A DNA stretch of 40,348 nt, from contig QBLU01000032.1 in assembly GCA_003241875.1 (NCBI GenBank), positions 1 through 40,348 of the forward strand. Reading direction: 5' to 3'. Positions 3,589 to 23,071 of this stretch are shown piece after piece. The notes beneath the pieces are model-generated. The model made no database searches and was not told the DNA's origin. It worked only from the letters and a program-made list of their open reading frames with translations. Origin of the DNA: Alphaproteobacteria bacterium. Lineage in GTDB: Bacteria; Pseudomonadota; Alphaproteobacteria; Sphingomonadales; Sphingomonadaceae. Position 1 is the first letter of the stretch. Each line of letters starts with the position of its first letter. The position numbers and the translations under genes were made by a program.

Positions 3589-3816
3589 GGCGTCGTGGCC
3601 GGTGAACTCGGTTGTCATCGGCACGGCGAGTCCAAAAATTATCGCTTCCGCGGCGCGGTCGCGCTCCGACGCGGCGCAGCATTCTCACAGGCTGTTGGGA
3701 GAAGGCGGGGTGCGCCTGCTCAATTCTGGGAGGGCAGAACAGCATGGGGAAGCACGGGATGCTGGCGGCTGCCTGCATGCGCTAAAGTGTCGAAGTGCAT
3801 CAAGGTGGGGCGCAGC

Positions 3817-5109: not shown

Positions 5110-6305
5110 TGATCGACGTGCTCGCCTGGTGCCTTGTTGCGATCACGGCGCCGCCGGTTCTGATGTTCGCCATCGAATGTATTGCCGGCGCGGCACCGCG
5201 CGATGAAACCTCCGCCAAGCACGCCCATGATGACACAGTTGTCCCCCCTTTCGCGGTCCTGATCCCGGCGCACAACGAAGCCGCGGATATCGCAGCGACA
5301 CTGTCCGCCGCTGCGGCGCAATTGCGGCCTGGCGACCGGCTGCTGGTCGTGGCGGATAACTGCGATGACGCTACCGCCGCCTTGGCACGCGCCGCCGGTG
5401 CCGAAGTCGTGGAGCGCTTTTCCACGACCCAGCGCGGCAAGGGCTTCGCGCTGGCTGCCGGGCGCTCGGCGCTCGCCGCATGGCCGCCGGCCGTCGTCGT
5501 CGTGCTCGATGCCGACTGCGTTCCCGAGCCCGGCGCGTTGCAGCGCCTCGCTGGCCACGCTGCGCTTGAGGCGGCGGCGGTCCAGGGACGTTATCTGCTC
5601 ACCCCGAACGGCAGTACCCACCCGTCCGCGCAGATTTCGTTGTTCGCCTTCGCCATAAAGAACCTCGTGCGCCAGCGAGGGCTGCAACGGCTCGGCAGTC
5701 CGGCGCTGCTGCAGGGCACCGGGATGGCCCTGCCCTGGCCCTTGTTCGCCGAGGCCGAACTGGCGAGCGATTGTCTTGCCGAGGACCTTGAACTCGGGAT
5801 TGCGCTGGTGCTTGCAGGCAAACCGGTCCGGTTTTTGCCAGATGCCGGCTTCAACAGCCCTGCAAGTTCGCTCGGTGCCGCTGTCGGGCAGCGTACGCGG
5901 TGGGAACATGGCACGATCGTGACGGCCTGGCGCCATATCCCGGCGCTGCTCGCTGCCGGGCTCCGCCGACCGTCAATACTGCTGCTGGCGCTCGATCTGA
6001 CCATTCCCCCACTGGCTTTGCTCACCGTGATCATTGTCGCGACGACACTGGTGACCGTGCTGCTAGCGGGGCTCGCCGCCGGTCCCGCACCGCTGCTGAC
6101 CCAGCTTGCTCTGGACGCCCTCTTCCTGCTCGCTGTCGGCTATGCCTGGTATCGCGTCGGACGTGCCTATCTGGCGCTTGGGACCTTGCTCCACATCCCC
6201 GGTTATGTGCTGTGGAAGCTGCCGATCTACCGCCGCCTGCTCGTCGATCGCCAGCGCAGCTGGGTGCGCACCGCGCGTGACGCCACCACCGAACGCAAGC
6301 AATGA
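5106..6305 (+). CDS. Glycosyltransferase family 2, membrane-bound
   Basis: A 399-aa GT-A enzyme of the processive-like GT2 type. Residues 1-25 form a membrane anchor. The catalytic domain shows AVLIPAHNEAADIAATL, LLVVADNCDDAT, the DxD-type motif VVVVLDADCVPEPG, the acidic EDLELG, and QRTRWEHG, corresponding to the Q/RxxRW motif of cellulose-synthase-like GT2 enzymes. Two or three hydrophobic segments follow at about residues 280-370. It likely transfers sugars at the cytoplasmic face of the membrane. The ATG at 5106 overlaps the stop of the upstream GT4 gene, so the pair forms one operon. The gene ends 22 bp before the convergent oxygenase gene. Confidence 0.86.
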   Translation: MMIDVLAWCLVAITAPPVLMFAIECIAGAAPRDETSAKHAHDDTVVPPFAVLIPAHNEAADIAATLSAAAAQLRPGDRLLVVADNCDDATAALARAAGAEVVERFSTTQRGKGFALAAGRSALAAWPPAVVVVLDADCVPEPGALQRLAGHAALEAAAVQGRYLLTPNGSTHPSAQISLFAFAIKNLVRQRGLQRLGSPALLQGTGMALPWPLFAEAELASDCLAEDLELGIALVLAGKPVRFLPDAGFNSPASSLGAAVGQRTRWEHGTIVTAWRHIPALLAAGLRRPSILLLALDLTIPPLALLTVIIVATTLVTVLLAGLAAGPAPLLTQLALDALFLLAVGYAWYRVGRAYLALGTLLHIPGYVLWKLPIYRRLLVDRQRSWVRTARDATTERKQ

Positions 6306-6327: not shown

Positions 6328-7209
6328 TCAGCCTGGCGCCTTTTTCGCGCGCAGCATGCGGTAGAGCGCCGGGGGCAGCCAGTCGATCGCCGATCGGCGA
6401 TAAAGCGCCGGCGGAATCCAGTCGGCCATCTTGTGCTGGCGCATGACCTGCCAGTCGGTGCGGTCGCTGCTGCCGGGCCGGCGTTTGAACACCGTGTCGC
6501 GGACCGGGACGGTGTCGAGCCCGGCGGTGGGGGCGGTGTAGTAATACAGCGCGATCGAGCGGCGGGCGCGGTCAGGCGGGCATGCTATGGCGGTCGGCAC
6601 ACCGTGAAAACTGTCGAGATCGGTGTTGAAGATGACGGCGCGAGCCATGACCGGCGCGGCCGACCGGACGCAGCGGCTCATATCACGCGTCCAGAGCTCG
6701 AGATCGCCCTCCCATTCGGGTTGCCAGCCGTCGTTAAGGTAGATCAGCAGGTTGAGGCGGCGCAGGACGCCAATCCGGGTCTGGATGTTGAAATCGGCAT
6801 GGATGCCGAGATGGCCACCGCAGCGCATTTCATGGAGGCCGCCGCCGCTGTAATAGGGATCGGTGAGCAATTTCTTGATGCCGGTCAGGCCTTCGAGAAA
6901 GGCGAGGATCGGTTCGGAGTTCATTTCGGCAAGAAAGTTGCGCAGGCCGGGCGTGGTGAGGTTGATCGGACGCCATGCGAGCTTGAGGCGTTCCTGGGCG
7001 CGGTCGAACGCCAGTTCTTCTCCCGAGGTCGGCCATTCGACAAGCAGGCTACGCAGCAGCTCGGCATCGATGAAATCATCGAGGACGATGTGCGGAAAGG
7101 GATCGGCGGCGGCATATTGTTCGTGGAGTGCCTGGCCGGCGGCGGCGCACTGGTCCTTGTCGAACATGATCATGCCATTGGCGAGCGATCGGGTTTCAAG
7201 GACGGGCAT
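6328..7209 (-). CDS. 2OG-Fe(II) oxygenase family protein
   Basis: A 293-aa protein with the double-stranded beta-helix signature of 2-oxoglutarate/Fe(II) oxygenases: HxD in GIHADFN, the distal histidine in SFHGVP, and the 2OG-binding arginine in RRSIALYYY. LLIYLNDGWQPEWEGDLELW matches the core between the first and second iron ligands (prolyl-4-hydroxylase-like PF13640 group). Such enzymes hydroxylate small molecules, sugars or side chains using 2-oxoglutarate and O2. I chose ATG at 7209 because AGGA precedes it by 8 bases; the frame is open up to 7314 without an equally good start. It lies in the polysaccharide block, downstream of a GT2 on the same strand, so modification of a sugar or of a nearby product is plausible but not shown. 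Confidence 0.82.
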   Translation of the reverse strand: MPVLETRSLANGMIMFDKDQCAAAGQALHEQYAAADPFPHIVLDDFIDAELLRSLLVEWPTSGEELAFDRAQERLKLAWRPINLTTPGLRNFLAEMNSEPILAFLEGLTGIKKLLTDPYYSGGGLHEMRCGGHLGIHADFNIQTRIGVLRRLNLLIYLNDGWQPEWEGDLELWTRDMSRCVRSAAPVMARAVIFNTDLDSFHGVPTAIACPPDRARRSIALYYYTAPTAGLDTVPVRDTVFKRRPGSSDRTDWQVMRQHKMADWIPPALYRRSAIDWLPPALYRMLRAKKAPG

Positions 7210-7270
7210 GAGATTTTTCCTGCCGGTGGTGCGGGTTCGTGGCCGCGAGAAGATGACTAGCTGCCGGCCG

Positions 7271-7447
7271 TCAGGGCAACAATCGCCCGGTCTGCCACCT
7301 GCAATTGGGGCCAAGGATATTCACCATGCCCTGTCGGCGATCGTGGTAAACGAAGCGCTCCGTAATGCTTGCGTCGTTCGCCAACGCCGCACGCAGGCTT
7401 TCAGGGTCCTTCAACGCCAGCGGCACGATCTCGACATCGATCAGGTG
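7271..7447 (-). pseudogene. Orphan coding remnant between GT2 and oxygenase genes
   Basis: On the minus strand a 58-residue stretch opens right after an in-frame TAG (7448-7450) and runs to TGA at 7271. It has a natural-looking composition: it begins HLIDVEIVPLALKDPES, continues with ITERFVYHDRRQGM and ends NILGPNCRWQTGRLLP. It has no ATG at its beginning and overlaps the last 47 bases of the GT2 frame in a different register. I read it as the 3' end of a gene broken by deletion or frameshift, or as the true continuation after an indel. I do not recognise the family. Confidence 0.4.
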
Positions 7448-8441
7448 CTACACCCGCTTGCGCGCCCTTGTATTCGATGAGCCGCATCTCCGCGCCCTTG
7501 AGCTTCCTGATGTAGAACGTCAGCATTCCCTGAATGCTGGGAAGCTTTGAAAGCGTCAAAGCCGCCGCATGACGCGCCGCCTCACCCGAAGATTGCCCGT
7601 TCGATACCAGTCCACGCCAGGTGCGCAACCAGTTGAACCCCCAAGCCGCGGTTGCCAGGGCCACCAAAAGCTCCTGCCCGGCAGCCAGGCCCGCCAGCGC
7701 CAGAACCGGCATCGCTCCGCCGTAAAATAACACCCGTTGCTGTTCACGCACGAAATGACCGGGATGCAGACTGCCAATCTGGGCAAAGGCATGGCCGGAG
7801 CGAACGGCGCGCCGCCACCATTGGGAAAATCTGGTCATGTCAGCGTCGTGGTGCGTCATGGTCCGGGGCAGCCTGTGAACCCGAAGCCCCGTTGCCCGCA
7901 CCCGCAGGCAAAAATCGTCATCCTCGCCTGCGATGAGCGTGCCATTGAAACCAGCGACCGCGGCAAAGGCTGTGCTGCGCACCATCATGTCGCCGCCGCA
8001 GACCAGGATATCGCCGGCGGGGCGGTGCCATTCTACCTCCGCCAGCGCATTGTAGATGGATCGTTCCGGCTCGATCTCCCGACGCCAGCCGGTCAAGATT
8101 CCAATATCGGGATGCCTGTCCAGGGTTGCCTGGGCCTCGGCAATCCAGCCTGGCTGCACGCCACAATCACCATCGACGAACTGGACATAATCCGGCAGTC
8201 CTGCGTGATGCAGGGCAGCAAATCCTGCATTGCGGGCCCGTGCAGCGGTAAAGGGCACGCTGGAGTCAAGCTCGACTACCATTGTCCCGACACTGCGGGC
8301 AAAGTTGACGCTGTCATCGACCGAACCTGAATCGACATAAACGATCCGGTCGACCTGTCCCTGCAGAGAGGTCAGGCAGCGTTGCAGCCGGATGCCCTCG
8401 TTGCGGCCGATCACAACGGTGGCGACGCTACTGGGTTTCAT
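7401..8441 (-). CDS. Glycosyltransferase family 2
   Basis: A 346-aa GT-A protein. The order of motifs is VATVVIGRNEGIRLQRCL at the N-terminus, IVYVDSGSVDDSV, then FVDGDCGVQPGWI as the DxD-type metal site, GDMMVRSTAFAAVAGF, and the acidic pair in GEDDDFCLRVRATG. Hydrophobic stretches at about residues 240-275 suggest membrane association. The family usually ends soon after a motif like the IEYKG seen here. The last 18 or so residues (GVAPDRCRD and onward) look out of register, and a protein-like reading continues in another frame (7271-7447), so the 3' end may carry a frameshift. ATG at 8441 is the start. It is divergent from the NRPS/PKS operon and shares a 500-bp upstream region with it. Confidence 0.82.
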   Translation of the reverse strand: MKPSSVATVVIGRNEGIRLQRCLTSLQGQVDRIVYVDSGSVDDSVNFARSVGTMVVELDSSVPFTAARARNAGFAALHHAGLPDYVQFVDGDCGVQPGWIAEAQATLDRHPDIGILTGWRREIEPERSIYNALAEVEWHRPAGDILVCGGDMMVRSTAFAAVAGFNGTLIAGEDDDFCLRVRATGLRVHRLPRTMTHHDADMTRFSQWWRRAVRSGHAFAQIGSLHPGHFVREQQRVLFYGGAMPVLALAGLAAGQELLVALATAAWGFNWLRTWRGLVSNGQSSGEAARHAAALTLSKLPSIQGMLTFYIRKLKGAEMRLIEYKGAQAGVAPDRCRDRAAGVEGP

Positions 8442-8941: not shown

Positions 8942-11900
8942 ATGTTCGACGACCTCACCACACCGAAGCAAGACGCCGGACGTTGGCCCAAGGAAGGTTG
9001 GCCCAAGGAAAGCTGGCGCTGTGTACTGATCGGTGCCGAAGCCTTGCTGGTCGATTGCGCCCAGCAACTGGAAGCCCGTGGCCACCGCATCGCCGCCATC
9101 GTCAGTTCGGCACCAGCGATTGCCGCCTGGGCGGCCGAGCGCGGGCCGCTGTTCGCAGACACGAATGCATTGCTGGCAATGGCCGAAAAGATCGGCGAGG
9201 TCGATTATCTGTTCAGCATTGCCAACCTTTCGGTGCTGGGGCGCGACGTTCTGGCGCTGGCCAGGCACGGCGCCATCAACTTCCATGACGGCCCCCTGCC
9301 CGAGCGTGCCGGTGTCAACACGCCGGCTTGGGCACTGATCGATGGCGCTGTGGAACATGGTGTCACCTGGCATTTGATGACCAGCGCCGTCGATGGCGGT
9401 GCAATCCTTGCCGAGCGGCGTTTCCCGATCGCGCCCGAAGAAACGGCGCTCGGCCTCAACCGCAAATGCTTTGCCGCAGCAAGCGACAGCTTTCGCGAGC
9501 TTCTCGACCGGATGACGGCGCAGGGACCTTCGCCGATCGCCGCGCCTGCGACGCCGTTGGCGATCTACCGCAAGGCCGACCGGCCCGCCGCCGGTGGCGC
9601 GATCGACTGGGGCCAGCCCGCCGCAGCCGTCGCCCGGCTGATACGGGCGCTCGATTTCGGCGCTTATGCCAATCCGCTTGTCGCGGCGACGGCGGTCTTC
9701 GACGGCAGCCTGTTCATCGTCCAGGCAGCACAGGTGCGACCCGGCACGGGCGCAGCGCCGGGCGAAATCACGGGAATCGACGCCGACGCCATAACCGTCG
9801 CGGCGGCCGACGCCGCGATAGCGATCACGCAGGTGACCATGCTTGACGGCACCAGCCTGGCCCCGCTCGACGCGGCGCGGCGCCTCGGCCTCGCGGTTGG
9901 AAAACGCCTCGAAAGTCTCGATCCCGGTCACGCCGCTACACTCCAGGAGCTGGTCAGCGCGACGGCGAAGCACGAAGCCTTCTGGGTTGCCCGCCTGCTG
10001 AAGGCGCAGACCATCGACCTGCCGGGCATCGATTGGCAGTCGCGACAGGCCGGCTGTTGTGCCAGCATCGACATGGCACTGTGCAACGCCGACCGGCCCG
10101 CGCGCCTCCACACCCTGCGTGCTGCCGCCGTCGGCTGGCTGGCGAGGCTCGCCGATGTCGACCGTGTCGATATCGGCTATGCGACGCCACTGCTGCGCGA
10201 GCAGTACAATGGCGTTGCGGCCTGGTTCGCGCCGCAACTGCCGCTCGGCATCGACATCGATTTCGGGGCACCCTTTTCGGCGCTCTGCGATGCCGTCACC
10301 ACCGAGGTCGCCGAGGTCCACCGCCGCATCGGCATGACCGCCGACCTCGCAGCGCGCACCCCGGCCTTGCGCGCGCGCGGGGCGCATCCGTTGACGCTGC
10401 CGGTCGCGCTGACCATGGTCGACGCGCTCGACGACGCCCGTGCCGAGCCCGGGGCCGTGTTGACGCTCGCCTTCTGCGGCGATGGCAGCGCCTGCCGCTG
10501 GCTCTACGACGCGGCGCGGCTGGCGCCCGATCTGGTTGTCGCCATGCAGGAACAGTTCGCTGTGCTGCTCGCCGCTGTCGATGCCGACCCGGCGCAGCGG
10601 CTCGGCGACTTGCCGCTGATGGGCCCGGCCACGCACCAGGCCGTGCTGGTGGCACGCAATGCCACCACCGCGCCGGCGCGCACCGATGTCTGCATCCACA
10701 CGCTGATCGAGGAACAGGTCCGCCGCACACCCGATGCCGTCGCCGTCGTCTGCGGCGACCGGTCGATGACCTATGCCGAGCTCGACCGGGCCGCCGGGCT
10801 TTGGGCGCAGCGGCTGCACGGCCTTGGGATCGGCCCCAACAAGCTGGTCGGCATCTATGCCGATCGATCGATCGACATGGTTGTCGGCGTCCTTGCCGTG
10901 CTCAAGGCCGGCGGCGCCTATGTGCCGCTCGACCCGGCCTATCCGGCGGCGCGGATCGAGCACATGCTCGCCGATTCTGGCGTCGGGGTAGTGCTCACCC
11001 AGCGTCGGCTGGCCGACAGGCTGCCGCGAAGGCATATCGAGCTGCTCTGCCTCGATGCACCCGTCGGGCCCGTGGCAACCCCTGCCCCGCTCGCCGACGT
11101 TTCGCCCGCCGATGCTGCCTATGTCATCTACACCTCGGGATCGACCGGCGCGCCCAAGGGGGTGATCGTCGAGCACCGCAACGTGGTGAACTTCTTTGCC
11201 GGCATGAATGCGCGGATCGAAGCCCCCGGCACCTGGTTGGCGGTGACCAGCCTCAGCTTCGACATCTCGGTGCTCGAGCTGTGCTGGACCCTGACGCGCG
11301 GCTTCACCGTGGTGATCTACACCGCCGAAGACCGCAAGGCCGGCGAGCTGCCCTCGGCACAGGCTCACAAGCCGCTCGATTTCAGCCTTTTCTATTTCGC
11401 CAGCGATGCGGGCGAAGGCAGTGACAGGTACAAGCTGCTGCTCGAAGGCGCCAGGTTCGCCGACCGCGAAGGCTTCAGCGCCGTCTGGACTCCCGAACGT
11501 CACTTCCATGCCTTTGGCGGGCTCTACCCCAACCCCGCCGTCACCAGCGCGGCGGTGGCGGCGATCACGTCGCGGGTGCGAATCCGCGCCGGCTCGGTCG
11601 TCATGCCGCTGCACCACCCGATCCGCGTCGCCGAGGACTGGTCGCTTGTCGACAACCTCTCGAATGGCCGCGCCGAAATCTCCTTCGCCGCCGGCTGGCA
11701 GCCCAACGATTTCGTCCTCGCTCCTGAAAAGTTCAAGGACAACAAGGCGATCATGCTGCGCGACATGGAGGTCGTGCGCAAGCTGTGGCGCGGTGAAAGC
11801 GTCGCCTTCCCGGGCCCGCTCGGCAAGGATGTCGAAACCTCGATCCTGCCGCGCCCGATCCAGCCCGAACTGCCGGTCTGGCTGACCTCGGCCGGCAATG

Positions 11901-13630
11901 TCGAAACCTTCGAAGCAGCAGGCCGCGCCGGCGCCAACGTGCTGACCCACCTGCTGGGCCAGACCATCGACGAGCTCGAGGGCAAGCTTGCCGCCTATCG
12001 CGCGGCCTGGACCGACGCCGGCCACCCCGGCACCGGCCGCGCCGCGGTTATGCTGCACAGCTTTGTCGGCCCCGATGCCGCGACCGTGCGCGCCATCGTC
12101 CGCGAGCCGCTGATCGAATATCTCCGCACCTCGGCAAGCCTCATCAAGCAATATGCCTGGAGCTTCCCGGCCTTCAAGCGGCGCGAGGGCATGACCGACG
12201 CCAGCGGCGGCGTCGAACTCGACAGCCTGGCGCCCGAGGAAATGGCGGCGCTGCTCGAATACAGCTTCGAACGCTATTTCGAAACCAGCGGCCTGTTCGG
12301 CACGCCGGCCGACTGCATGGCCGTCGTCGACCGGTTGAAGGCGGTCGGCGCCGATGAAGTCGCCTGCCTTATCGACTTCGGCATCGATTCGGCGACCGTC
12401 CTCGCCCATCTGCCCTACCTCAACGAAGTTCGCCGCCTCGCCGAACCCGGCCGTGCCGCAGCCCCGGCCGATGTCCCTGCGCTGATGGCGCACCATCGCG
12501 TCACCCATCTCCAGTGCACGCCGTCGATGGCTGCCCTGCTTCTCGCAGACGGCCGGAGCGATGCTGGCCTTGCCGGCCTCAAGCACCTGATGATCGGCGG
12601 CGAAGCCTTCCCGCCTGAACTGGCCCGTCACCTGCGCGCCCGGGTCGGCGGCCGTATCAGCAACATGTACGGGCCGACCGAAACCACGATCTGGTCGACC
12701 ACCGCCGACGTCGGGGAAGGTCCGATCTCGCTCGGCACCCCGCTCGCCAACCAGGAGGTCTTCATCCTCGATCGCCGCCAGCAGCCGGTTCCCGATGGCG
12801 TTCCGGGTGAACTCGTCATCGGCGGCGGCGGCGTGACTCGCGGCTATTTCAATCGCCCCGAACTGACCGCCGAACGGTTCGTGCAGCACCCGTTTCGCGC
12901 CGGCGAGCGCGTCTATCGCACCGGCGACCGCGCGCGCTTTCGCGCCGACGGCTCGCTCGAATTCCTGGGCCGGCTCGACAACCAGGTGAAGATCCGCGGC
13001 CACCGCATCGAACTCGGCGAGATCGAGGCGGCGCTCGCCGGTCATCCGGGGGTGAGCGAGGCAGCGGTTGTCGCCCGCGAGGACGCGCCCGGCGACATCA
13101 GGCTGGTCGCCTATATCGTTCCAGCCGGCACCAAGCCCAACGACGAGGTCCTGCTCACCCATCTGCGCAACCGGCTGTCCGAAGCGATGCTGCCGCAACG
13201 CATCATGGCGCTCGCTGCGATGCCCCGCACTCCGAATGGCAAGCTCGACCGCAAGGCGCTGCCCGTGCCGACTGCCGATGTCGTCGCCATTGCCGACGCC
13301 GCCTCGCCCGCCGATGGCGTGCAGGCCCGCATTGCCGAGGTCTGGCGGAACGTCCTCAAGCTGCCCAGCGTCGGCATGGGAGACAATTTCTTCGATATCG
13401 GCGGCCACTCCCTGCTCGCCGTGCAGGTCCACCGGCAGCTTTGCACTGCCCTTGATCGCAAGCTGGCGATCACCGACGTGTTCCGCTTCCCGACGATCAG
13501 GGCGCTGGCGGAATTCCTGGCGCGCGACAGCGCGGCCGTACCCATGGTCGGCATCGACCGCGCCGAGGCCCGCCGCGCTGCGGTGGGGCGCCGACGGATG
13601 ACCGGTCTCGTTCATGGGGGAACGGCATGA
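8942..13630 (+). CDS. NRPS-like protein: formyltransferase-C remnant-A(LLM)-PCP
   Basis: A 1562-aa multidomain synthetase. Residues ~25-320 are a formyltransferase domain with FMT-type catalytic residues N113, H115 and D151 (INFHDGPLP, then VDGGAI). Residues ~335-580 resemble only the C-terminal half of a condensation domain; no HHxxxDG is present. The adenylation domain starts near 583 (YVIYTSGSTGAPKG at ~725, FDISVLEL at ~770) and is interrupted at ~805-1165 by an FMN luciferase-like monooxygenase (WTPERHFHAFGG, PLHHPIRVAEDW) of the MupA/Atu3671 type. It resumes at ~1178 (MYGPTETTIW, RTPNGKLDRKAL). The ten pocket residues read DILQMGMIWK, near the glycine code DILQLGLIWK as I recall it. A carrier protein ends the chain (NFFDIGGHSLL, S1490). 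ATG at 8942 follows GGGGAAGG; the frame upstream is not protein-like. The stop overlaps the PKS start by four bases. An initiation module loading formylated and/or oxidised glycine is inferred. Confidence 0.9.
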   Translation: MFDDLTTPKQDAGRWPKEGWPKESWRCVLIGAEALLVDCAQQLEARGHRIAAIVSSAPAIAAWAAERGPLFADTNALLAMAEKIGEVDYLFSIANLSVLGRDVLALARHGAINFHDGPLPERAGVNTPAWALIDGAVEHGVTWHLMTSAVDGGAILAERRFPIAPEETALGLNRKCFAAASDSFRELLDRMTAQGPSPIAAPATPLAIYRKADRPAAGGAIDWGQPAAAVARLIRALDFGAYANPLVAATAVFDGSLFIVQAAQVRPGTGAAPGEITGIDADAITVAAADAAIAITQVTMLDGTSLAPLDAARRLGLAVGKRLESLDPGHAATLQELVSATAKHEAFWVARLLKAQTIDLPGIDWQSRQAGCCASIDMALCNADRPARLHTLRAAAVGWLARLADVDRVDIGYATPLLREQYNGVAAWFAPQLPLGIDIDFGAPFSALCDAVTTEVAEVHRRIGMTADLAARTPALRARGAHPLTLPVALTMVDALDDARAEPGAVLTLAFCGDGSACRWLYDAARLAPDLVVAMQEQFAVLLAAVDADPAQRLGDLPLMGPATHQAVLVARNATTAPARTDVCIHTLIEEQVRRTPDAVAVVCGDRSMTYAELDRAAGLWAQRLHGLGIGPNKLVGIYADRSIDMVVGVLAVLKAGGAYVPLDPAYPAARIEHMLADSGVGVVLTQRRLADRLPRRHIELLCLDAPVGPVATPAPLADVSPADAAYVIYTSGSTGAPKGVIVEHRNVVNFFAGMNARIEAPGTWLAVTSLSFDISVLELCWTLTRGFTVVIYTAEDRKAGELPSAQAHKPLDFSLFYFASDAGEGSDRYKLLLEGARFADREGFSAVWTPERHFHAFGGLYPNPAVTSAAVAAITSRVRIRAGSVVMPLHHPIRVAEDWSLVDNLSNGRAEISFAAGWQPNDFVLAPEKFKDNKAIMLRDMEVVRKLWRGESVAFPGPLGKDVETSILPRPIQPELPVWLTSAGNVETFEAAGRAGANVLTHLLGQTIDELEGKLAAYRAAWTDAGHPGTGRAAVMLHSFVGPDAATVRAIVREPLIEYLRTSASLIKQYAWSFPAFKRREGMTDASGGVELDSLAPEEMAALLEYSFERYFETSGLFGTPADCMAVVDRLKAVGADEVACLIDFGIDSATVLAHLPYLNEVRRLAEPGRAAAPADVPALMAHHRVTHLQCTPSMAALLLADGRSDAGLAGLKHLMIGGEAFPPELARHLRARVGGRISNMYGPTETTIWSTTADVGEGPISLGTPLANQEVFILDRRQQPVPDGVPGELVIGGGGVTRGYFNRPELTAERFVQHPFRAGERVYRTGDRARFRADGSLEFLGRLDNQVKIRGHRIELGEIEAALAGHPGVSEAAVVAREDAPGDIRLVAYIVPAGTKPNDEVLLTHLRNRLSEAMLPQRIMALAAMPRTPNGKLDRKALPVPTADVVAIADAASPADGVQARIAEVWRNVLKLPSVGMGDNFFDIGGHSLLAVQVHRQLCTALDRKLAITDVFRFPTIRALAEFLARDSAAVPMVGIDRAEARRAAVGRRRMTGLVHGGTA

Positions 13631-16600
13631 ATCCGATGATCCAGAACCTTCCCGGTTATGATCCCATCGGCGAACACGATGAAGCATGCATTGCCGTCGT
13701 CGGCATGGCCGGGCGTTTCGCCGGCGCCACCGACATCGACGCCTATTGGCGCAACCTGCGCGAAGGCGTCGAATCGATCGTCAACCTGACCGATGCCGAA
13801 TTGCTGGCTGCCGGTGTCAACCCGCGGCTGTTGCGCCGGCCGAACTATATCAAGGCTGCCGCCCCGCTTCCGGACATGGAAATGTTCGACGCCGGGTTCT
13901 TCGGCATGTCGCCGCGCGAAGCCGCCATCATGGACCCGCAGCACCGCCATTTCCTCGAATGCGCCTGGGCCGCGATCGAAGATGCCGGTCACCCACCGGA
14001 ACGCTTTGCCGGTGCCACCGGCGTGTTCGCCGGCAGCGGCCACAACGCCTACATGCCGTACAACTTGCTGACCAACCCCAAGCTGATGGAACAGGTCGGT
14101 TTCTTCCTTGTTCGCCACACCGGCAACGACAAGGATTTCCTCACCACCCGCGTCTCGTACCTGCTCAACCTGCGCGGCCCCAGCGTCAACGTGCAGACCG
14201 CCTGCTCGACGTCGCTCGTTGCCATCCACATGGCGGTCCAGAGCCTGCTCAACCGCGAATGCGACATGGCACTGGCCGGCGGCGCCACGATCGAACTGCC
14301 GCACCGCCACGGCTATCTGCACCAGGAAGGCGGCATCATGTCGCCCGATGGCCATTGCCGCGCCTTCGATGCCGAATCGGCCGGCACGGTGTTCGGCAGT
14401 GGCGTCGGGGTCGTTGTCCTGCGCCGTCTCGCCGATGCGTTGGCGGATGACGACCATATCTATGCCGTCATCAAGGGATCGGCGGTCAACAACGACGGGG
14501 CCGGCAAGGTCGGCTACCTCGCGCCCTCGGTCGACGGACAGGCCCAGGCGATCACCGAGGCACTGGCGATCGCCGGCACGCCCGCCAGCACGATCACCTA
14601 TGTCGAGGCGCACGGCACCGGCACCGCCGTCGGCGACCCGATCGAGGTCGCTGCGCTGACCGAGGCGTATCGCAAGGACACGGAGGAGGTTGGCTATTGC
14701 GGGCTCGGCTCCGTCAAGGGCAACATCGGCCACACCGATACCGCCGCGGGTGTCGCCAGCTTCATCAAGGTGGCATTGGCGCTGAAGCACGGCGAACTGC
14801 CGCCATCGCTGCATTTCTCCGCCCCCAACCCGGCGTGCGAGCTCGATCGCAGCCCCTTCTTCGTCAACGCCGCGCTCCGCCCCTGGGCCACCCCGGCAGG
14901 GATGCCGCGCCGCGCCGGCGTCAGTTCGCTGGGCGTCGGCGGCACTAACGCCCATGTCATCCTGGAACAGGCCCCGGGCCGCCGCCCTGGCACGCCGACT
15001 CGCCCGCATCAGCTGATCACCTTGTCGGCTGCCAGCGCGTCGGCGCTCGATGCCAATACCGCGGCCCTCGCCGAGCATCTCGGGCAAGGCTCCGCTTCCG
15101 ACCTCGCCGATATCGCCTATACGCTCACCGTCGGCCGCCAGGCGCTGCGCCACCGCCGCGTCGTCGCGGTCAGCGATGCCGCCGACGCAGCAAAGGCGCT
15201 TCTCGATCCGGCGCGGACTGCGACCTTCGAGGCAACCGCCGAAACGCGCCACGTGTATTTCATGTTCGCCGGCGGCGGCGCCCAGCACCCCGGCATGGGG
15301 CTCGACCTTTACGAAGGCGAAGCCGTGTTCCGCGATGCGGTCGACGACTGCCTCGACCGGCTGGTCGTCCATGGCGTCACCGACGTCCGCCGCTGGCTGT
15401 ATCCGACGGCCACAGACGCGGATGCGGCAACTGCCCAGATGAAGCGCCCGTCGATTGGCCTGCCGGCACTATTCGCTGTCCAGTACGGCCTGTCGAAGCT
15501 CTGGCTGCACTGGGGCGTGACGCCCAAGGCAATGATCGGTCACAGCCTCGGCGAGTATATGGCGGCGCATCTGGCAGGTGTCATGGCGCTCGACGATGCC
15601 CTCGGACTGGTGGCGCTGCGTGGCCGCCTGTTCGAACGTCTGCCCGAAGGCGGCATGCTCAGCATTTCGTTGTCCGAGCGCGAACTGGCCCCGTTGCTGA
15701 GCCCCGACCTGTCGATTGCCGCCGTCAACGGCCCCGCGATGACCGTCGCCTCCGGCCCCAACGCGGCGCTCGCGGCACTCAGGTCCCGGCTCGAGGCGCG
15801 CGAGATCCCGTGCCAGATCGTGCCGATCAACATCGCCGCCCATTCGTCGATGCTCGACCCCATTCTCGCGGAATGGAGCGCCTATCTGCGCCGCGTCCCG
15901 CTCAGCCCGCCGACAAAGCCGTTCGTCTCCGGGTTGACCGGAACGTGGATCTCGCCCGCCGAAGCCACCGATCCCGGCTACTGGGTGAACCAGATGCGCC
16001 ACACCGTGCGCTTCGGCGATGGTATCTCGGTGTTGGTCAAGGACCCCAATTGCGTCTTGCTCGAGGTCGGCCCCGGCCGCGCGCTTGCCAGCCTCGCCAA
16101 GGCCGGACTGGGTCGCGAAGCACCGCCGGCGTTGGCCTCGATGCGCCACATGGACGAGGCGGTGTCCGACGTACGCCACGCGCTCGACATGCTTGGCCGC
16201 CTTTGGGCAACCGGCGCGACCGTCAATTGGGGCGTATTCTGGCAACCCGAACGGCGCCTGCGCGTCCACCTGCCAACCTATCGTTTCGATCGCAACCGCC
16301 ACTGGATCGAGCCCGGTCAAGGCACGGCGATCGCCGAAGAAGACGATGCCGAACGGCGCGAAGACGTCGCCGACTGGTTCCACCAGCCGGTGTGGCGCCG
16401 CATCGATCCGCTGGCAGCACCACCTTCGGATGCAACGACCCTAGTCTTCGAAGGCGAAACTGGCCTTGGCGCGGCGCTTGCCGACCTGCTGGTGGCAGGC
16501 GGCGCCGATGTCATCCGCGTGCGGCCGGGGCGGCGCATGGCCTGGACCGGCAAGAACATGGTGACCATCGATCCTGCCGCCCCGGCCGACTATGCCGCGC

Positions 16601-19600
16601 TGATCGCCCGCCTTGCCGAGGAAGGCCGGTCACCGCGCAAGATCGCGCATTGCTGGCTGCTGACCGGCGACAAGCCCTTTCCCGGCGGTATCGACGCGGC
16701 CGAACTACTGCAGAACCGCGGCTTCTACAGCCTGCTCGCGCTTGCCCAGGCGCTTGGCGGCGAGGACACCAGGGGGCCGGTCGACGTTGTTGTCGTGACC
16801 GACCATATGCTGCGTGTCGCCGGCGATGCCGAGATCGTGCCGGCCAAGGCGACTGTGCTGGGGCCATGCAAGGTGATTCCGCGCGAAATTCCGGATGTCA
16901 CGACGCGCGCCATCGATGTCGTTTTGCCGGCCGCCGGCACCTGGGCCTGGCGGGAACTGGTCGCGGCGCTGGCCGCCGAACTGGCAACCCCCGACTCGCA
17001 CGACGTCGTCGCCTATCGCGCCGGCGAACGCTGGGGGCAGGACTGGCGCCCCGTGGCTCTGAAACCGGCGCCCGGGCTGCGGGCGCTGAAACCGGGCGGC
17101 GTCTATCTCATCACCGGCGGCCTCGGCGGGATCGGCCTCGCCCTTGCCGATCACCTTGCCCGGACCGTGGCTGCGCGCCTGGTGCTGGTCAGCCGCACCC
17201 CGCTGCCGCCGCGCGACCAATGGGCGGCACGGCTACATGCCAACGACCCCGATGATCCGATTCCCGATCGGATCCGCAGGATCATGGCGATCGAGCGGCT
17301 CGGTGCCGAGGTGCTCGTCGTCAATGTCGATGCGACCAACGCGCCCCGCCTCCGCCACGCCATCAGACAGGCACGCGACCGCTTCGGAACCATCGACGGG
17401 GTTTTCCATACCGCCGGCGTCCTCGACGACGGGCTGATCGCCCTCAAGGACCCCTTCGCCGCATCGGCCGTCCTCGCCCCCAAGTTGCGCGGCACGCTCG
17501 CGCTCGAGGAAGCGCTTTTCGATGCAAAGCCCGACTTCATCATGCTGTTCTCGTCGGTCAGCGCCACCCTGGGGTTGGCCGGGCAGATCGACTATGCCGC
17601 CGCCAACGCCTTTCTCGATGCCTATGCCCAGTCGAAGGCACAGTGCGATGGCCCTTATGTCGTGGCTGTCGACTGGAGCCAGTGGCAGGACGTCGGCATG
17701 GCCGCGGCACTCGCCCGCGCACTCGGCCATGACGGAAACGACGCTGCCGCCGGCAAACCGACGGGCAATCCGTTGCTCGGCGACGTGCGCCGCGACACCG
17801 CGACCGAGCGGACGTTTGTCGCCAGGCTTTCACCGGCCACGCACTGGTTGCTCGACGAGCACCGGGCGACCGCGGCCGACGGCACCACCACGCCGGTGCT
17901 CCCTGGTGCCGGCTATATGGAGATGGTGCGCGCCGCCCTTGCCCGACACGGCGAGGACCGGCCCATCGAGATCGCCAATGTCGTCTTCCTCGCGCCCTTC
18001 CTCGTCGCCGACGGCGCAACGCGGGAGCTTCGCCTGCACATGACGCGCCGGCAGGGCAGCGAATGGCGCTTCACCGTCGAAGGCCGCACCGTCGGCGCCG
18101 GCGACACGGAAGACTGGACCGAACATGTCCGCGGCGACGTCGCCTATGTCGATGCCCTGCGCCCGGCCGACGTCGAGATCGCGTCGATCCTCGTCGGCTG
18201 CCGCAGCAGCGTGCGCACCGGCCCGGCGCCGACCGATCGCATGAGGTTCGGCCCGCGCTGGCAGAATCTCGAACGCGTCGATTTCGGCACCGACGAAGCC
18301 GTGATCACCCTGTCGCTGCCGCCACGCTATGCGGGCGAGCTCGATCAGTTGACGCTTCATCCGGCGCTGCTCGACTTTGCCACCGCGGGCGCACAAGCGC
18401 TGGCGACAGGCTCGTCATCCGATTTCTTCGTCCCCGCGTCGTACCGCCGGTTGGTTCAATATGCCCCGCTTGTTCCGCGGCTTGTCAGCCATGTGCGCTA
18501 TCGCGGCGGGGCAGCGGCCGGCATCGCAACCTATGATGTGACCATCTGTGACGAGGCCGGCCATGTGCTGGTCGACATCACGGAATTCACGATGTTGAGG
18601 GTCTCCGAAAAAACCGCGTTCGCGGCAAGTGCCGGGCCCCGTGCCCGGCCGCGCGGCGCCGCCAGCCCGATCATTGCGCACAACCAGACCAGCGGCATCG
18701 AACCCATGCAGGGCATGAAGGCGATCGAATTGATCCTCGGCGCGCGGATGGCGCCGCAAGTCGCCGTTTCGCCGCAGCCTTTCGCCGCGCTCCTGGCCCG
18801 TCTCCGCACCACCGCCGCACCCGCTGCCGGCGGCCAGCGCAGCGGCGAAGCCAGGGGCGGAGCCCCGGAAAGCGCCGCGGAGCGGTTGGTTGCCCAGCTT
18901 TGGCACGAGATGCTCGGGGTTGCCGATATCGGCCTCGACGATGATTTCTTCGATCTCGGCGGCCATTCGCTTCTCGCCGTGCAACTGGTCAGCAAGCTGA
19001 AAAAACGCACCGGTCGCGCTCTGCCGCTGACAGCGCTGCTCGAAGCGCCGACGCTCGGCGGCCTTGCGGCGCTGCTCGGACCAATCGACGGCCCGGCCGA
19101 CGCGGGGACAGCGCGGCCAGCGGCTGCCGCACCGCGCACCAGCACGCCGGGACTGGTCCGGATCAGGGCCGGCGGCGACAAGCTGCCTCTGTTCTTCGTC
19201 CATGACGGGCTTGGCGAGACGTTGCTCTATCGCACGCTGGCGATGAAGCTCGATGCTGGTCATCCGGTCTATGGCCTCCAGCCCAGAACGGCCCCCGACG
19301 GCAGCTTCCTCCACACAACCATCGCCGAAATGGCGGCGGCGCACATCGAAAGCATCCGCCGCGCCCAGCCCGAAGGTCCGTATCTGCTGACCGGCCTTTG
19401 CGCCGGCGGCGTCATTGCCTTCGAGATTGCCCGCCAGCTCCAGGATGCCGGGCAGCGCACCCTGTTCGTCGGGATCATCGACGCCGCCGACGTCGAAGCG
19501 GCGGAACGGCCATTCTTCGTCACGCGGCAGCGGCTGCAACGGCTTGGCGCGCTGGTCGCCGGCGACAATTTGTCGGCAGGGCACATCGCATCGCTGGCGC

Positions 19601-20091
19601 CGGTGATCGCCCGGAGAATCGGCAATACGGTGCGCTATGAAATCGACAAGCGCCGCGAGCGGACGACCAGAGCGACCGCACCGTCAGCCGCCATGGCCGG
19701 CGAAAGCCCAACCATCTCCTTCCTCAATCTTTACCAGGGCGCCCACCGCCTGCACCGGCCGAGCGGCCTGTTCAGTGGCGGCGACGTCGTGCTGTTCAAG
19801 GCAACGAAGGGCGACGGCTCCATCGACGACATGCCGTTCGGCGAACAGTTCAGCGACGTCGCCATGGGCTGGGGCAAGCGCGTTGCCGACGTCGTCAACG
19901 TCATCGACGTCCCCGGCGGGCATTCGAGCGCGCTGCAGCCGCCGCATGTCGATACCCTCGCCCGCGCGCTTCAGGAACGTATCGATGCGGCCTTGCGCAA
20001 GGTGCCTGCCGACCCCGGCATCACGCCACGGCCGATGGCAGACGCCAACCCGGCAGTGGCCGTGTCGGAACCGGAGCTGGTCGCGGGTTGA
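13627..20091 (+). CDS. Type I PKS, KS-AT-KR-DH-ACP-TE
   Basis: A 2154-aa single-module polyketide synthase. KS spans ~20-440 with C193 (TACSTS), EAHGTGT and NIGHTD. AT spans ~540-840 with S640 in GHSLGEY; that motif favours malonyl-CoA, though IAAHSS replaces the usual HAFH. The linker HLPTYRFDRNRHWIE at ~880 leads into a structural KR subdomain, then the catalytic KR (TGGLGGIG at ~1160, Y1323). A DH-like hot-dog domain follows the KR at ~1396-1660, with H1412 and D1583 (HPALLDFATAGAQ). The ACP has S1781 (DLGGHSLLAV). A thioesterase at ~1840-2120 has GLCAGG, so the nucleophile is C1925 rather than serine, with D1952 and H2099 completing a triad. The start overlaps the NRPS stop (ATGA) and the stop overlaps the next start. 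The module likely extends the NRPS-bound starter by one malonate, reduces and dehydrates it, then releases it. Confidence 0.93.
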   Translation: MNPMIQNLPGYDPIGEHDEACIAVVGMAGRFAGATDIDAYWRNLREGVESIVNLTDAELLAAGVNPRLLRRPNYIKAAAPLPDMEMFDAGFFGMSPREAAIMDPQHRHFLECAWAAIEDAGHPPERFAGATGVFAGSGHNAYMPYNLLTNPKLMEQVGFFLVRHTGNDKDFLTTRVSYLLNLRGPSVNVQTACSTSLVAIHMAVQSLLNRECDMALAGGATIELPHRHGYLHQEGGIMSPDGHCRAFDAESAGTVFGSGVGVVVLRRLADALADDDHIYAVIKGSAVNNDGAGKVGYLAPSVDGQAQAITEALAIAGTPASTITYVEAHGTGTAVGDPIEVAALTEAYRKDTEEVGYCGLGSVKGNIGHTDTAAGVASFIKVALALKHGELPPSLHFSAPNPACELDRSPFFVNAALRPWATPAGMPRRAGVSSLGVGGTNAHVILEQAPGRRPGTPTRPHQLITLSAASASALDANTAALAEHLGQGSASDLADIAYTLTVGRQALRHRRVVAVSDAADAAKALLDPARTATFEATAETRHVYFMFAGGGAQHPGMGLDLYEGEAVFRDAVDDCLDRLVVHGVTDVRRWLYPTATDADAATAQMKRPSIGLPALFAVQYGLSKLWLHWGVTPKAMIGHSLGEYMAAHLAGVMALDDALGLVALRGRLFERLPEGGMLSISLSERELAPLLSPDLSIAAVNGPAMTVASGPNAALAALRSRLEAREIPCQIVPINIAAHSSMLDPILAEWSAYLRRVPLSPPTKPFVSGLTGTWISPAEATDPGYWVNQMRHTVRFGDGISVLVKDPNCVLLEVGPGRALASLAKAGLGREAPPALASMRHMDEAVSDVRHALDMLGRLWATGATVNWGVFWQPERRLRVHLPTYRFDRNRHWIEPGQGTAIAEEDDAERREDVADWFHQPVWRRIDPLAAPPSDATTLVFEGETGLGAALADLLVAGGADVIRVRPGRRMAWTGKNMVTIDPAAPADYAALIARLAEEGRSPRKIAHCWLLTGDKPFPGGIDAAELLQNRGFYSLLALAQALGGEDTRGPVDVVVVTDHMLRVAGDAEIVPAKATVLGPCKVIPREIPDVTTRAIDVVLPAAGTWAWRELVAALAAELATPDSHDVVAYRAGERWGQDWRPVALKPAPGLRALKPGGVYLITGGLGGIGLALADHLARTVAARLVLVSRTPLPPRDQWAARLHANDPDDPIPDRIRRIMAIERLGAEVLVVNVDATNAPRLRHAIRQARDRFGTIDGVFHTAGVLDDGLIALKDPFAASAVLAPKLRGTLALEEALFDAKPDFIMLFSSVSATLGLAGQIDYAAANAFLDAYAQSKAQCDGPYVVAVDWSQWQDVGMAAALARALGHDGNDAAAGKPTGNPLLGDVRRDTATERTFVARLSPATHWLLDEHRATAADGTTTPVLPGAGYMEMVRAALARHGEDRPIEIANVVFLAPFLVADGATRELRLHMTRRQGSEWRFTVEGRTVGAGDTEDWTEHVRGDVAYVDALRPADVEIASILVGCRSSVRTGPAPTDRMRFGPRWQNLERVDFGTDEAVITLSLPPRYAGELDQLTLHPALLDFATAGAQALATGSSSDFFVPASYRRLVQYAPLVPRLVSHVRYRGGAAAGIATYDVTICDEAGHVLVDITEFTMLRVSEKTAFAASAGPRARPRGAASPIIAHNQTSGIEPMQGMKAIELILGARMAPQVAVSPQPFAALLARLRTTAAPAAGGQRSGEARGGAPESAAERLVAQLWHEMLGVADIGLDDDFFDLGGHSLLAVQLVSKLKKRTGRALPLTALLEAPTLGGLAALLGPIDGPADAGTARPAAAAPRTSTPGLVRIRAGGDKLPLFFVHDGLGETLLYRTLAMKLDAGHPVYGLQPRTAPDGSFLHTTIAEMAAAHIESIRRAQPEGPYLLTGLCAGGVIAFEIARQLQDAGQRTLFVGIIDAADVEAAERPFFVTRQRLQRLGALVAGDNLSAGHIASLAPVIARRIGNTVRYEIDKRRERTTRATAPSAAMAGESPTISFLNLYQGAHRLHRPSGLFSGGDVVLFKATKGDGSIDDMPFGEQFSDVAMGWGKRVADVVNVIDVPGGHSSALQPPHVDTLARALQERIDAALRKVPADPGITPRPMADANPAVAVSEPELVAG

Positions 20092-21101
20092 TGTCGATCC
20101 TGGTTGTCATCGTCAACTATCGCACGGCGAAGCTTGTGGTTGCGTGCCTTGACAGCCTGGCGCTCGAAGTCGCCGCCAATCCTGGCACAAAGGTGACGAT
20201 TGTCGACAACGCGTCCGGCGATGGCTCGGGCACGACGATCGCTGCCGCCATTGCCGAACAGGGCTGGGAAAATTGGGCCGAGCTGGTCGAATCGCCGGTG
20301 AATGGCGGTTTCGCGGCTGGCGTGAATGTTGGCGTCCGCCCGGCGCTCGCTAGCGGCGACGTCGAGTTTCTGTGGTTGCTCAACCCCGATACCGTGGTGC
20401 GCCCTGGCGCGATTGCCGCCCTCGCCGGCTTCATGCGCGCCCGTCCGACGGCGGGTATAGCTGGCAGTCTGCTCGAACTTGCTGACGGAACACCTTGGCC
20501 GTTCGCTTTCCGATTCCCCGGCCTGCTCGGCGAGGTGGAACAAGGGCTGCGGCTGGGCCTCGCGACTCGACTGCTTCGTCGCCACGCCGTGCTGCGACGG
20601 ATGGGCAGCGAACCGGCGCAGGTCGACTGGGTGTCCGGCGCCAGCTTCATGGTGCGCCGCTCCGTGTTCGAAGCAATCGGCCTGATGGACGAAGCCTATT
20701 TCCTGTATTTCGAAGAAACAGACTTCTGCCGTGCCGCCAATCGTGCCGGCTGGGAGTGCTGGTACATCCCCGATGCCAAGGTCATGCACATTGCCGGCCA
20801 GAGCACCGGCGTCACGGGTGCCGATGCTGCGCGGCAGCGTCGGCCCGGCTACTGGTTCGAATCGCGCCGGCGCTATTTCGTCAAAAATCACGGCAGCCTG
20901 TATGCTGCAGCCACGGATCTCGCCTGGCTGGTCGCATATTCTGTCTGGACGCTTCGCCGCAAACTCACAGGGGCACAATCCCCTGACCCGCCTGGATTGG
21001 CGCGTGACCTGCTTTGGCATTCGCCGCTTTTGCGCTGGCACAGCGTTGCGAATCGCGACACGGACCGGGACGCCCACCGGCCCCGACTGGAAGCACATTG
21101 A
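20091..21101 (+). CDS. Glycosyltransferase family 2 (rhamnosyltransferase-like)
   Basis: A 336-aa GT-A enzyme of the rhamnosyltransferase-like GT2 subgroup. Motifs in order: ILVVIVNYRTAKLVVACL, TIVDNASGDGSG, ESPVNGGFAAGVNVGV, LWLLNPDTVVRPGA (DxD-like site), DWVSGASFMVRRSVFEAIG, and YFEETDFCRAANRAG, which supplies the acidic catalytic base. The ATG at 20091 overlaps the PKS stop by one base, and the gene is followed after one base by the phosphopantetheinyl transferase gene. This packing places it in the NRPS/PKS operon, so it probably glycosylates the assembly-line product or loads that product onto a sugar acceptor. The sugar cannot be inferred. It could instead belong to the polysaccharide block further upstream. 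Confidence 0.86.
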   Translation: MSILVVIVNYRTAKLVVACLDSLALEVAANPGTKVTIVDNASGDGSGTTIAAAIAEQGWENWAELVESPVNGGFAAGVNVGVRPALASGDVEFLWLLNPDTVVRPGAIAALAGFMRARPTAGIAGSLLELADGTPWPFAFRFPGLLGEVEQGLRLGLATRLLRRHAVLRRMGSEPAQVDWVSGASFMVRRSVFEAIGLMDEAYFLYFEETDFCRAANRAGWECWYIPDAKVMHIAGQSTGVTGADAARQRRPGYWFESRRRYFVKNHGSLYAAATDLAWLVAYSVWTLRRKLTGAQSPDPPGLARDLLWHSPLLRWHSVANRDTDRDAHRPRLEAH

Positions 21102-21102
21102 G

Positions 21103-21762
21103 ATGGTCGCGGCCTTGCGCATTTATGCCGATGCGCCGTTCGACCTTTGGGTCGTCGACCTGTCGAAGAAGCCGCAACGCGATGATATCGCGCTCCTGTC
21201 CGTGGCCGAATGCCGCCGTGCCGGGCGCTTCCGATTTCGCCGCGATCGGCGGCGCTACATCATTGCCCATGCCGAACTGCGGCGGCTGCTGACGGCACAC
21301 GGCGCCGCCTTCGCACGCGATAGCGCCTATCTGGCAAACGATTTCGGCAAACCGCACGTAGCTGGCGCGGCCGGTCCCCACTTCAGCCTGAGTTATGCCG
21401 ACGACGTGGCACTGATCGGCCTCAGCGACGCCGGCGCCATCGGCGTCGACATCGAAACACTGCGCTCAATCGATGACGATGACATCACCAGCGACATCTT
21501 CGATGCAGGGGAAAGCGCCGCGATCTCAGGCACGTGTTCCGGGCCTGCCCGCAACGGCGCCTTCCTGCGCGCCTGGACGCGCAAGGAAGCCGCCATCAAG
21601 GCAGTCGGCACTGGGTTGTCAACGCCACCTGCCAGCGTCGGCGTCGGTATCACCGACGACATACGGCAGTTGCTCGTCGTGTGCAGCGGCGTGCAAACGC
21701 CTGTCGAAGTTGGCTCGTTCCGGATCGGCGACCAGGTCGCAGCATGGGCGCGTGTCCTGTGA
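21103..21762 (+). CDS. 4'-phosphopantetheinyl transferase, Sfp type
   Basis: A 219-aa protein. It carries the two signatures of the Sfp/Gsp family: GAIGVDIETL (Mg-binding Asp/Glu) and FLRAWTRKEAAIKAVGTG (the WxxKEA helix). An upstream FSLSYADDVALIGLS segment corresponds to the conserved FNLSH-like strand, here with Y for H. It transfers phosphopantetheine from CoA to the serine of carrier domains, here most likely S1490 of the NRPS and S1781 of the PKS. The frame is open well upstream inside the glycosyltransferase gene, but the ATG at 21103 sits one base after that gene's stop and starts the conserved region. Its presence as the last operon gene argues that the cluster is functional and self-sufficient. 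It ends 24 bp from the convergent LuxR-type gene. Confidence 0.88.
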   Translation: MVAALRIYADAPFDLWVVDLSKKPQRDDIALLSVAECRRAGRFRFRRDRRRYIIAHAELRRLLTAHGAAFARDSAYLANDFGKPHVAGAAGPHFSLSYADDVALIGLSDAGAIGVDIETLRSIDDDDITSDIFDAGESAAISGTCSGPARNGAFLRAWTRKEAAIKAVGTGLSTPPASVGVGITDDIRQLLVVCSGVQTPVEVGSFRIGDQVAAWARVL

Positions 21763-21786: not shown

Positions 21787-22014
21787 TCAAACCGCCGACA
21801 GCAGGCCTTCCTGGATCACATAAGCGACCATGTGCGCCCGATTGCGGGTCCGCGTCTTCAAGCGAACATTCTCGATATGCCGCTCGACCGTGCAAGGCGC
21901 TATCGCCAGTTCGAGCGCAACCTCCTTCGCCGATCGTCCCCGCGCGACCAACCGCAACACCTCGGATTCGCGATTGGTCAGCTGCGCCATTGGCAACCCA
22001 GAGTTCGTGTCCAT
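21787..22014 (-). CDS. Solo LuxR-type HTH regulator
   Basis: A 75-aa protein consisting of essentially one GerE/LuxR helix-turn-helix: LTNRESEVLRLVARGRSAKE, the recognition-helix region ALELAIAPCTVERHIENV, and a C-terminal dimerisation helix. No ligand-binding or receiver domain is present. GTGGGG lies 5 bases before ATG at 22014; ATG at 21990 is a possible shorter start, and the frame stays open to 22134. The gene is convergent with the end of the NRPS/PKS operon and is a reasonable candidate for its regulator, though nothing in the sequence proves the link. Single-domain LuxR proteins of this size are known in alphaproteobacteria and may act as DNA-binding subunits on their own. Confidence 0.75.
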   Translation of the reverse strand: MDTNSGLPMAQLTNRESEVLRLVARGRSAKEVALELAIAPCTVERHIENVRLKTRTRNRAHMVAYVIQEGLLSAV

Positions 22015-22995: not shown

Positions 22996-23071
22996 GGTCG
23001 GGGCGAGAGGATTCGAACCTCCGGCCCCTGCCTCCCGAAGACAGTGCTCTACCAGGCTGAGCTACGCCCCG
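22996..23071 (-). tRNA. tRNA-Pro (anticodon CGG)
   Basis: On the minus strand the acceptor CGGGGCG (5' end at 23071) pairs with CGCCCCG near 23000-23006. The D arm is GCTCAGCCTGGTAGAGC, the anticodon loop is TTCGGGA giving CGG, and the T arm contains GGTTCGAATCC. CCA is encoded (22996-22998) after discriminator A. CGG reads CCG proline codons, which are common in this GC-rich sequence. Confidence 0.95.

Follow-up and report, generated by a model that had tools for sequence, protein, structure and literature searches.

What does an operon make that couples a formylating nonribosomal peptide synthetase (NRPS) to a single polyketide synthase (PKS) module, and where does the product go? The operon in question occupies positions 8942-21762 of the 40,348-nucleotide stretch of alphaproteobacterial DNA analyzed here (the window), and encodes the NRPS, the PKS, a family-2 glycosyltransferase (GT2) and a 4'-phosphopantetheinyl transferase (PPTase), all on the (+) strand. 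The reading that we favor, with a probability of roughly 0.6, is that these genes form a carrier-protein assembly line devoted to a small acyl substituent of an extracellular polysaccharide encoded next to it. It builds on features observed in the sequence, namely the domains and their order, intact active-site motifs, a glycine-type specificity code, conserved partner genes and a polysaccharide neighborhood. The first-pass annotation had put a free, very small metabolite first and had offered acyl decoration of the adjacent polysaccharide as an alternative.

Polysaccharide genes around the cassette

The NRPS gene, with a formyltransferase domain (F) and a luciferase-like monooxygenase (LLM) in one protein, was found at 41 or more loci. 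The 41 considered here are not a census; they comprise the window, three sphingomonad genomes, six plasmids and 31 contigs from a pattern-limited scan (best 80 matches). Among plasmid records 46 matched, 16 of them with at least 80% coverage. The neighborhood was tested by BLAST in 36 loci, 33 of the 41 together with L143-L145, after masking of the cassette and with glycosyltransferases of every kind merged into one class. The reference proteins were taken from family members and self-hits were excluded; the short contigs L033 and L044, the sources of the reference proteins (L025-L028 and L030) and the window were left out of the 36.

Of the 36 loci, 31 had two or more classes of polysaccharide genes; among 18 random stretches of 20 kb from these genomes, one had two or more classes and two had at least one. 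The decoration reading is preferred over the free metabolite, which had been the main reading and is now demoted, because of this difference. For the random stretches a script drew 20 positions, on 14 contigs that belong to 14 of the locus-bearing genomes; two of the resulting stretches overlapped a cassette and were dropped (2/20 with them). As most of the contigs drawn on carry a listed sugar transferase, they do not represent whole genomes. Another 14 stretches, chosen by hand after a sugar-transferase search, gave 0/14. When one gene could count in several glycosyltransferase classes, the comparison with the latter stood at 32/36 to 0/14. Leaving out the plasmid records gives 28 of 32 loci with at least two classes (Fisher p about 1e-8, for loci that are not phylogenetically independent), and adding the left-out plasmids and the window gives 36 of 42. 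The association with polysaccharide genes is thus conserved, as it should be in an acyl pathway that decorates a polysaccharide.

Pfam searches of 130 open reading frames (ORFs) flanking the cassette in 14 loci matched GT1 (12), GT2 (11), Wzz (7), flippase (6), sugar transferase (3) and WecG (3) families, none of which appears in the 25-family listing for 130 control ORFs. The flank tally covers 130 of 155 ORFs (L056 and L061 were left out whole and four others by eye), and the control 130 of 205, taken at random. Nine plasmid regions were viewed, eight of them with gene tables (L029 was without). Seven of the eight have CpsD/CapB kinases, flippases, sugar transferases or comparable genes; the eighth, L144, has none. 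At least 6 of 25 genomes (G338, G290, G172, L036, L037 and L045) have a sugar transferase (PF02397) no more than about 21 kb from the NRPS; in L054, L056 and L063 it shares the contig with the NRPS but is 75 kb or more away. These distances were taken by hand and are only partly usable, since contig numbers did not match up in every case.

In 15 of the 41 loci, all from Rhodobacterales or Hyphomicrobiales, an SGNH-like protein of about 300 amino acids (GHSL...DxxH) is encoded behind the NRPS or the PPTase. The three members scanned have no Pfam match. Judged by their motifs, these proteins would fit the editing of acyl groups outside the cytoplasm.

Domains of the assembly line

In the NRPS, Formyl_trans_N and Formyl_trans_C are both matched above the Pfam cut-off, and are followed by an adenylation (A) domain, its AMP-binding match split by the LLM, and by a peptidyl carrier protein (PCP). 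The formyltransferase motif NFHDGPLP and the Asp are identical in 42 of 42 aligned members (the 41 loci and an LLM-less copy in genome G290), and its N, H and D residues are, we presume, catalytic. An N-H-D formyltransferase fused to A-PCP is the composition of a formylating initiation module of the LgrA type. Between F and A lies a stretch resembling the C-lobe of a condensation domain, which had escaped the first-pass annotation. The HHxxxDG motif of a functional condensation domain is absent from NRPS residues 391-590, and the stretch is a putative dead remnant. The ten specificity positions of the A domain read DILQMGMIWK, which we take to be a glycine-type code; the pattern DILQ.GM[IV]W occurs in the same 42 of 42 members and was not found in the three outgroup NRPSs with an F domain (L062, L065 and L071). 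The insert matches TIGR04020 (MupA/Atu3671 luciferase-like monooxygenase) with 496.8 bits against a cut-off of 244.45, over the whole model (1-341/341), and its motif WTPERHFHxFGG is present in 40 of the 41 LLM-bearing members, with a variant in L033. For LLMs of the TIGR04020-type subfamily, hydroxylation of the alpha carbon has been proposed (PMC8739492).

In the PKS, alignments show the active-site motifs of the ketosynthase (KS), acyltransferase (AT), ketoreductase (KR), dehydratase (DH) and acyl carrier protein (ACP) to be intact, in keeping with a reducing type I module; the motifs are those in common use for these domains. KR precedes DH, in the window as in the orthologous PKSs that have both domains in one frame, the reverse of the usual order in cis-AT PKSs. 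Pfam found no enoylreductase (ER) domain in the window PKS; for the other loci ER was outside the set of hidden Markov models (HMMs) used. The nucleophile of the thioesterase (TE) is Cys in all six sphingomonad PKSs of one alignment and Ser in its other three rows; in a wider alignment with 31 readable rows, two rows (both sphingomonads) have Cys and the others Ser. Neither the KR-DH order nor the TE nucleophile had been given in the first-pass annotation. In the genome as a whole, PF01648 is matched twice, once by the operon PPTase, and the ketosynthase N-terminal family four times, by the operon PKS, by a full-length match in a 440-residue frame and by two short partials. Pfam and NCBIfam searches agree with the first-pass annotation on one A domain and one KS, and its chain of one amino acid, glycine, and one malonate is still the simplest reading given the code.

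The four genes as a unit

The PKS is encoded by a single ORF in 34 of the 41 loci. In the remaining seven it is cut by the end of the locus (L032 and L038), divided between two ORFs (L045 and L059), lacking as a single ORF on contigs of 4.7 and 7.3 kb (L033 and L044), or, in L052, not found near the NRPS gene. A homolog of the GT2 is likewise present in 34 of 41 loci, 32 times within 6.4 kb of the NRPS gene and twice at 11.6-11.7 kb, and is absent or weak in seven. The PPTase is found in 34 of 41 loci, within 7.6 kb. That the glycosyltransferase and the PPTase belong to the cassette, as had been proposed, is therefore upheld. Pairwise identities co-vary among 31 loci (NRPS-PKS, r=0.964; NRPS-GT2, r=0.886; shuffles at most 0.46). 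In Ruegeria sp. SCSIO 43209 (L143:19662-20448), an ORF for a 78-residue hypothetical protein and a transposase fragment occupy the place where relatives have the PPTase.

By record title most of the 41 loci are from Rhodobacterales, and overall they are mostly from Alphaproteobacteria. Further loci come from Hyphomicrobiales, Novosphingobium, a Salinivenus metagenome-assembled genome (MAG), Acanthopleuribacter, a Myxococcota MAG and two proteobacterial MAGs. Among 396 Sphingomonadales genomes, six have near-full-length NRPS matches (the window's, G338, G383, G377, G172 and the LLM-less G290), and another 30 listed have partial matches only. The F/C-lobe part was matched in 10 of 385 Alphaproteobacteria, in eight of them within frames of 1503-1630 residues. 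Of 21 genomes of the window's genus, only that of the window has the PKS; it was absent at E 1e-100 from the 20 others searched. The cassette is accessory, because few genomes carry a near-full-length NRPS and only this one of the genus the PKS, and some copies are plasmid-borne. The architecture F-C*-A(LLM)-PCP, where C* is the condensation remnant, is beyond chance, because it recurs in 41 loci.

The copy on contig C15 of G290 (L116 and L117) has an NRPS without the LLM and a PKS without DH, and has lost the AT-serine and KR-tyrosine motifs. Its frames are still open (1204 residues from the first start codon; 1745 from stop to stop). The coupled loss of LLM and DH was considered as a sign that the two act together and was rejected, since the AT-serine and KR-tyrosine motifs are gone as well.

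Proposed pathway

The pathway that we infer, in every catalytic step as in the single use of the PKS, the acceptor and the fate of the C-N bond, would run as follows. The PPTase would prime both carriers. The A domain would load glycine and F would formylate it, with 10-formyl-THF as the expected donor, to give N-formylglycyl-S-PCP, whose alpha carbon the inserted LLM would hydroxylate, by analogy with its family. The PKS would add one malonate, reduce and dehydrate, so that glycine and malonate together should yield a C4 enoyl thioester oxidized at C4, with the formamide kept, as is probable, or lost. The product would then be a carbinolamide at C4 or, if the formamide leaves, a 4-oxocrotonyl thioester. 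Instead of using water alone, the TE would hand the acyl group to a sugar, an amino sugar being the likeliest acceptor, and the GT2 would build the acylated sugar into a repeat unit. A narrower form of this proposal, that the hybrid NRPS-PKS serves solely to place a reactive 4-oxocrotonyl or 4-hydroxy-4-formamido-crotonyl group on an exopolysaccharide, for cross-linking of the slime or binding to surfaces, is tentative and on present evidence doubtful.

Alternative explanations

Several observations weigh against a role in polysaccharide decoration. Five tested loci do not have two classes of polysaccharide genes: L031, L034, L043, L074 (glycosyltransferases only) and L144. In L034 no polysaccharide genes were seen in the stretch fetched. 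In L043 (Acanthopleuribacter) none were found in the neighborhood test, and the five ORFs scanned there matched no glycan family. The Salinivenus MAG locus L031 has no class in the BLAST test, although Pfam finds two GT2 proteins there; in favor of decoration, its cassette is flanked by a DegT-type aminotransferase and a GDSL acylhydrolase (PF13472). The window contig itself shows glycosyltransferases only in the neighborhood test, along with a Wzy_C-like protein below the cut-off, and neither a flippase nor a sugar transferase. In L052 (Myxococcota MAG) the NRPS gene sits among glycan genes with no PKS within 10 kb. The correlation of identities between the NRPS and its partners is inflated by shared ancestry, and the G290 copy, being remodeled or decaying, proves little. 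Within the operon no stand-alone acyltransferase was seen, and TE domains usually hydrolyze or cyclize. Finally, we know of no chemistry for any member of the family.

The first alternative is a free metabolite: the TE would release 4-formamido-crotonate or a hydroxylated or cyclized form, the glycosyltransferase would glycosylate it for storage or export, and the polysaccharide neighbors would be incidental. It accords with the normally hydrolytic action of TE domains and with L043 and L144, both outside polysaccharide loci. The latter, on a plasmid of Aliiroseovarius sp. M344, lies beside nos genes, with no polysaccharide genes found, and carries an extended version of the system (L144:14821-28560), in which the loading NRPS is followed by KS-AT-KR-DH-ACP-C-A-PCP-TE; with nitrous-oxide reductase genes as neighbors it looks like the source of a free peptide-polyketide. 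The continuation of the chain in L144 also suggests that the C4 acyl group can pass to an amine in a related system. The excess of polysaccharide classes over random stretches argues against release of a free product, and no transporter family was matched in the portion of the window ORFs that was scanned; we regard this explanation as unlikely. About as improbable, in our view, is a glyoxylate variant, in which the LLM would hydroxylate N-formylglycyl-S-PCP, the formamide would leave to give glyoxylyl-S-PCP, and the PKS would extend this to a 4-oxocrotonyl aldehyde that could cross-link the polysaccharide. F, a glycine-type A domain and the LLM, together in 41 loci, are a sufficient set for such chemistry, and MtaG of myxothiazol is reportedly a precedent. 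Against this, carbinolamides can persist, and in G290, which has F and a glycine-type A domain without the LLM, the nitrogen of formylglycine would be kept.

The remaining alternative also counts against the decoration reading as stated: the single PKS module might act iteratively and extend the acyl group to a longer polyene, such as a lipid anchor. An anchor of this kind is the role suggested for capsule PKSs of the RkpA/WcbR type. Type I PKSs do occur in capsule clusters (PMC3908369). The absence of ER from the window PKS speaks against iteration, as does the protein for formylglycine loading, which co-occurs and co-varies with the PKS, and we hold iteration to be very improbable.

Gene boundaries and flanking genes

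The coordinates of the four genes and the overlapping or abutting junctions described in the first-pass annotation hold to the base (Table 1). The NRPS gene starts with ATG at 8942 and stops at 13628-13630, overlapping the PKS start (13627-13629) as ATGA. The PKS stop (20089-20091) and the GT2 start at 20091 form TGATG, and the GT2 stop (21099-21101) is followed after a 1-bp gap by the PPTase ATG at 21103. Homologs of several window genes upstream of the operon adjoin the cassette in four sphingomonad genomes (extended loci); those of the Wzy_C-like protein lie near the cassette in G377, G172 and G290, and that of the 2OG-Fe(II) oxygenase was not found by the cassette in L060 (Novosphingobium resinovorum).

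Table 1. Coordinates of the operon, its inserted domains, upstream genes and SGNH-like examples; positions are in the window unless a locus is named.
Feature	Location	Strand	Basis
NRPS: F - condensation C-lobe remnant (putative) - A (glycine-type code) interrupted by LLM - PCP	8942..13630	+	Pfam/NCBIfam, alignment, domain HMMs
PKS: KS-AT-(structural KR)KR-DH-ACP-TE, TE nucleophile Cys (GLCAG)	13627..20091	+	Pfam, active-site alignments
GT2	20091..21101	+	Pfam/NCBIfam; conserved neighbor
PPTase, HetI/Sfp-like	21103..21762	+	HetI model, 74.2 bits (short of the 370 cut-off)
Formyltransferase domain; active-site N, H, D conserved (NFHDGPLP, D151)	9017..10111	+	Pfam, alignment
LLM insert (TIGR04020), NRPS residues 814-1164, after A4-type motif	11381..12433	+	NCBIfam, domain HMMs
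Glycosyltransferase, group 1	551..1579	+	Pfam
Wzy_C / O-antigen-ligase-like membrane protein	1899..3557	+	Pfam, 31.6 bits, just under the 31.7 cut-off
GT4-type glycosyltransferase	3595..5109	+	Pfam; homologs beside cassette in relatives
GT2 glycosyltransferase	5106..6305	+	Pfam; homologs in relatives
2OG-Fe(II) oxygenase	6328..7314	-	Pfam; homologs by cassette in 3/4 extended sphingomonad genomes
GT2 glycosyltransferase	7401..8441	-	Pfam; homologs in relatives
SGNH-like protein	L034:17718-18617		Motifs
SGNH-like protein (Ruegeria conchae)	L027:20318-21253		Motifs

Downstream of the operon, a short ORF for a LuxR-type (GerE) DNA-binding protein (21787-22134, minus strand) converges with the PPTase gene. 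A tRNA-Pro(CGG) gene (22995-23071, minus strand) in a dip of G+C content separates the operon from genes such as lepA, near which a protein is encoded (25724-27010) that combines a papain-like Peptidase_C70 domain with five BTRD1 repeats of polyglycine-hydrolase type. In L052 (9998-15961) the NRPS with F and LLM is accompanied by a PPTase, a WecG-type glycosyltransferase, a 2OG oxygenase and a GT4 protein.

Relation to known systems and significance

In AlmEFG, Dlt and RfbL/RfbN, adenylation and a carrier protein supply an acyl group to a surface glycan, as proposed here; those systems transfer a ready-made acid, whereas the present operon would first assemble the chain. The initiation module F-A-PCP of LgrA (linear gramicidin) likewise has a formyltransferase fused to A-PCP, and LgrA chains are the best PDB matches; the NRPS here differs in its glycine-type code, LLM insert, putatively dead C-lobe and PKS partner. 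With the MupA/Atu3671 family of LLMs (TIGR04020), including PuwE (6ket), which was matched in the PDB, the insert shares a match above the cut-off; here, however, the LLM interrupts an A domain, and the protein is one for formylation and loading. The RkpA/WcbR capsule PKSs resemble the present one, by description rather than by sequence, in being type I PKSs within a surface-polysaccharide cluster, but no NRPS or formyl-loading partner is mentioned in the portion of PMC3908369 available.

An orphan NRPS-like/T1PKS cluster has been reported from Roseibaca and other Rhodobacterales, the hybrid being present in 18 of 37 species (PMC10584327). Its NRPS gene of 4,527 nt and T1PKS gene of 6,333 nt are about 1 kb apart, with room for one glycosyltransferase-sized gene, as in the Rhodobacterales loci here. 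The gene pair studied here is probably this cluster, matched by gene size and order and not by sequence. It was presented as a candidate source of bioactive compounds, and the word "polysaccharide" does not occur in the main text of PMC10584327. The earlier claim that no characterized pathway has this exact set thus stands in that none was found, with the qualification that the pair has probably been cataloged already as an orphan cluster. What appears to be new is that a formylglycine-loading NRPS and a PKS, accompanied by a glycosyltransferase and a PPTase of their own, are associated with polysaccharide loci in different orders; among the open-license papers listed, no title or beginning of an abstract was found that links such a cassette to polysaccharide.

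If the decoration reading is correct, a recurrent orphan "secondary metabolite" cluster belongs to the biosynthesis of surface polysaccharides. The mining of such clusters would then have to change, and an undescribed acyl group would be expected on biofilm polysaccharides. Should the acyl group also prove reactive, megasynthases would functionalize a structural polymer, and would do so in more than one phylum.

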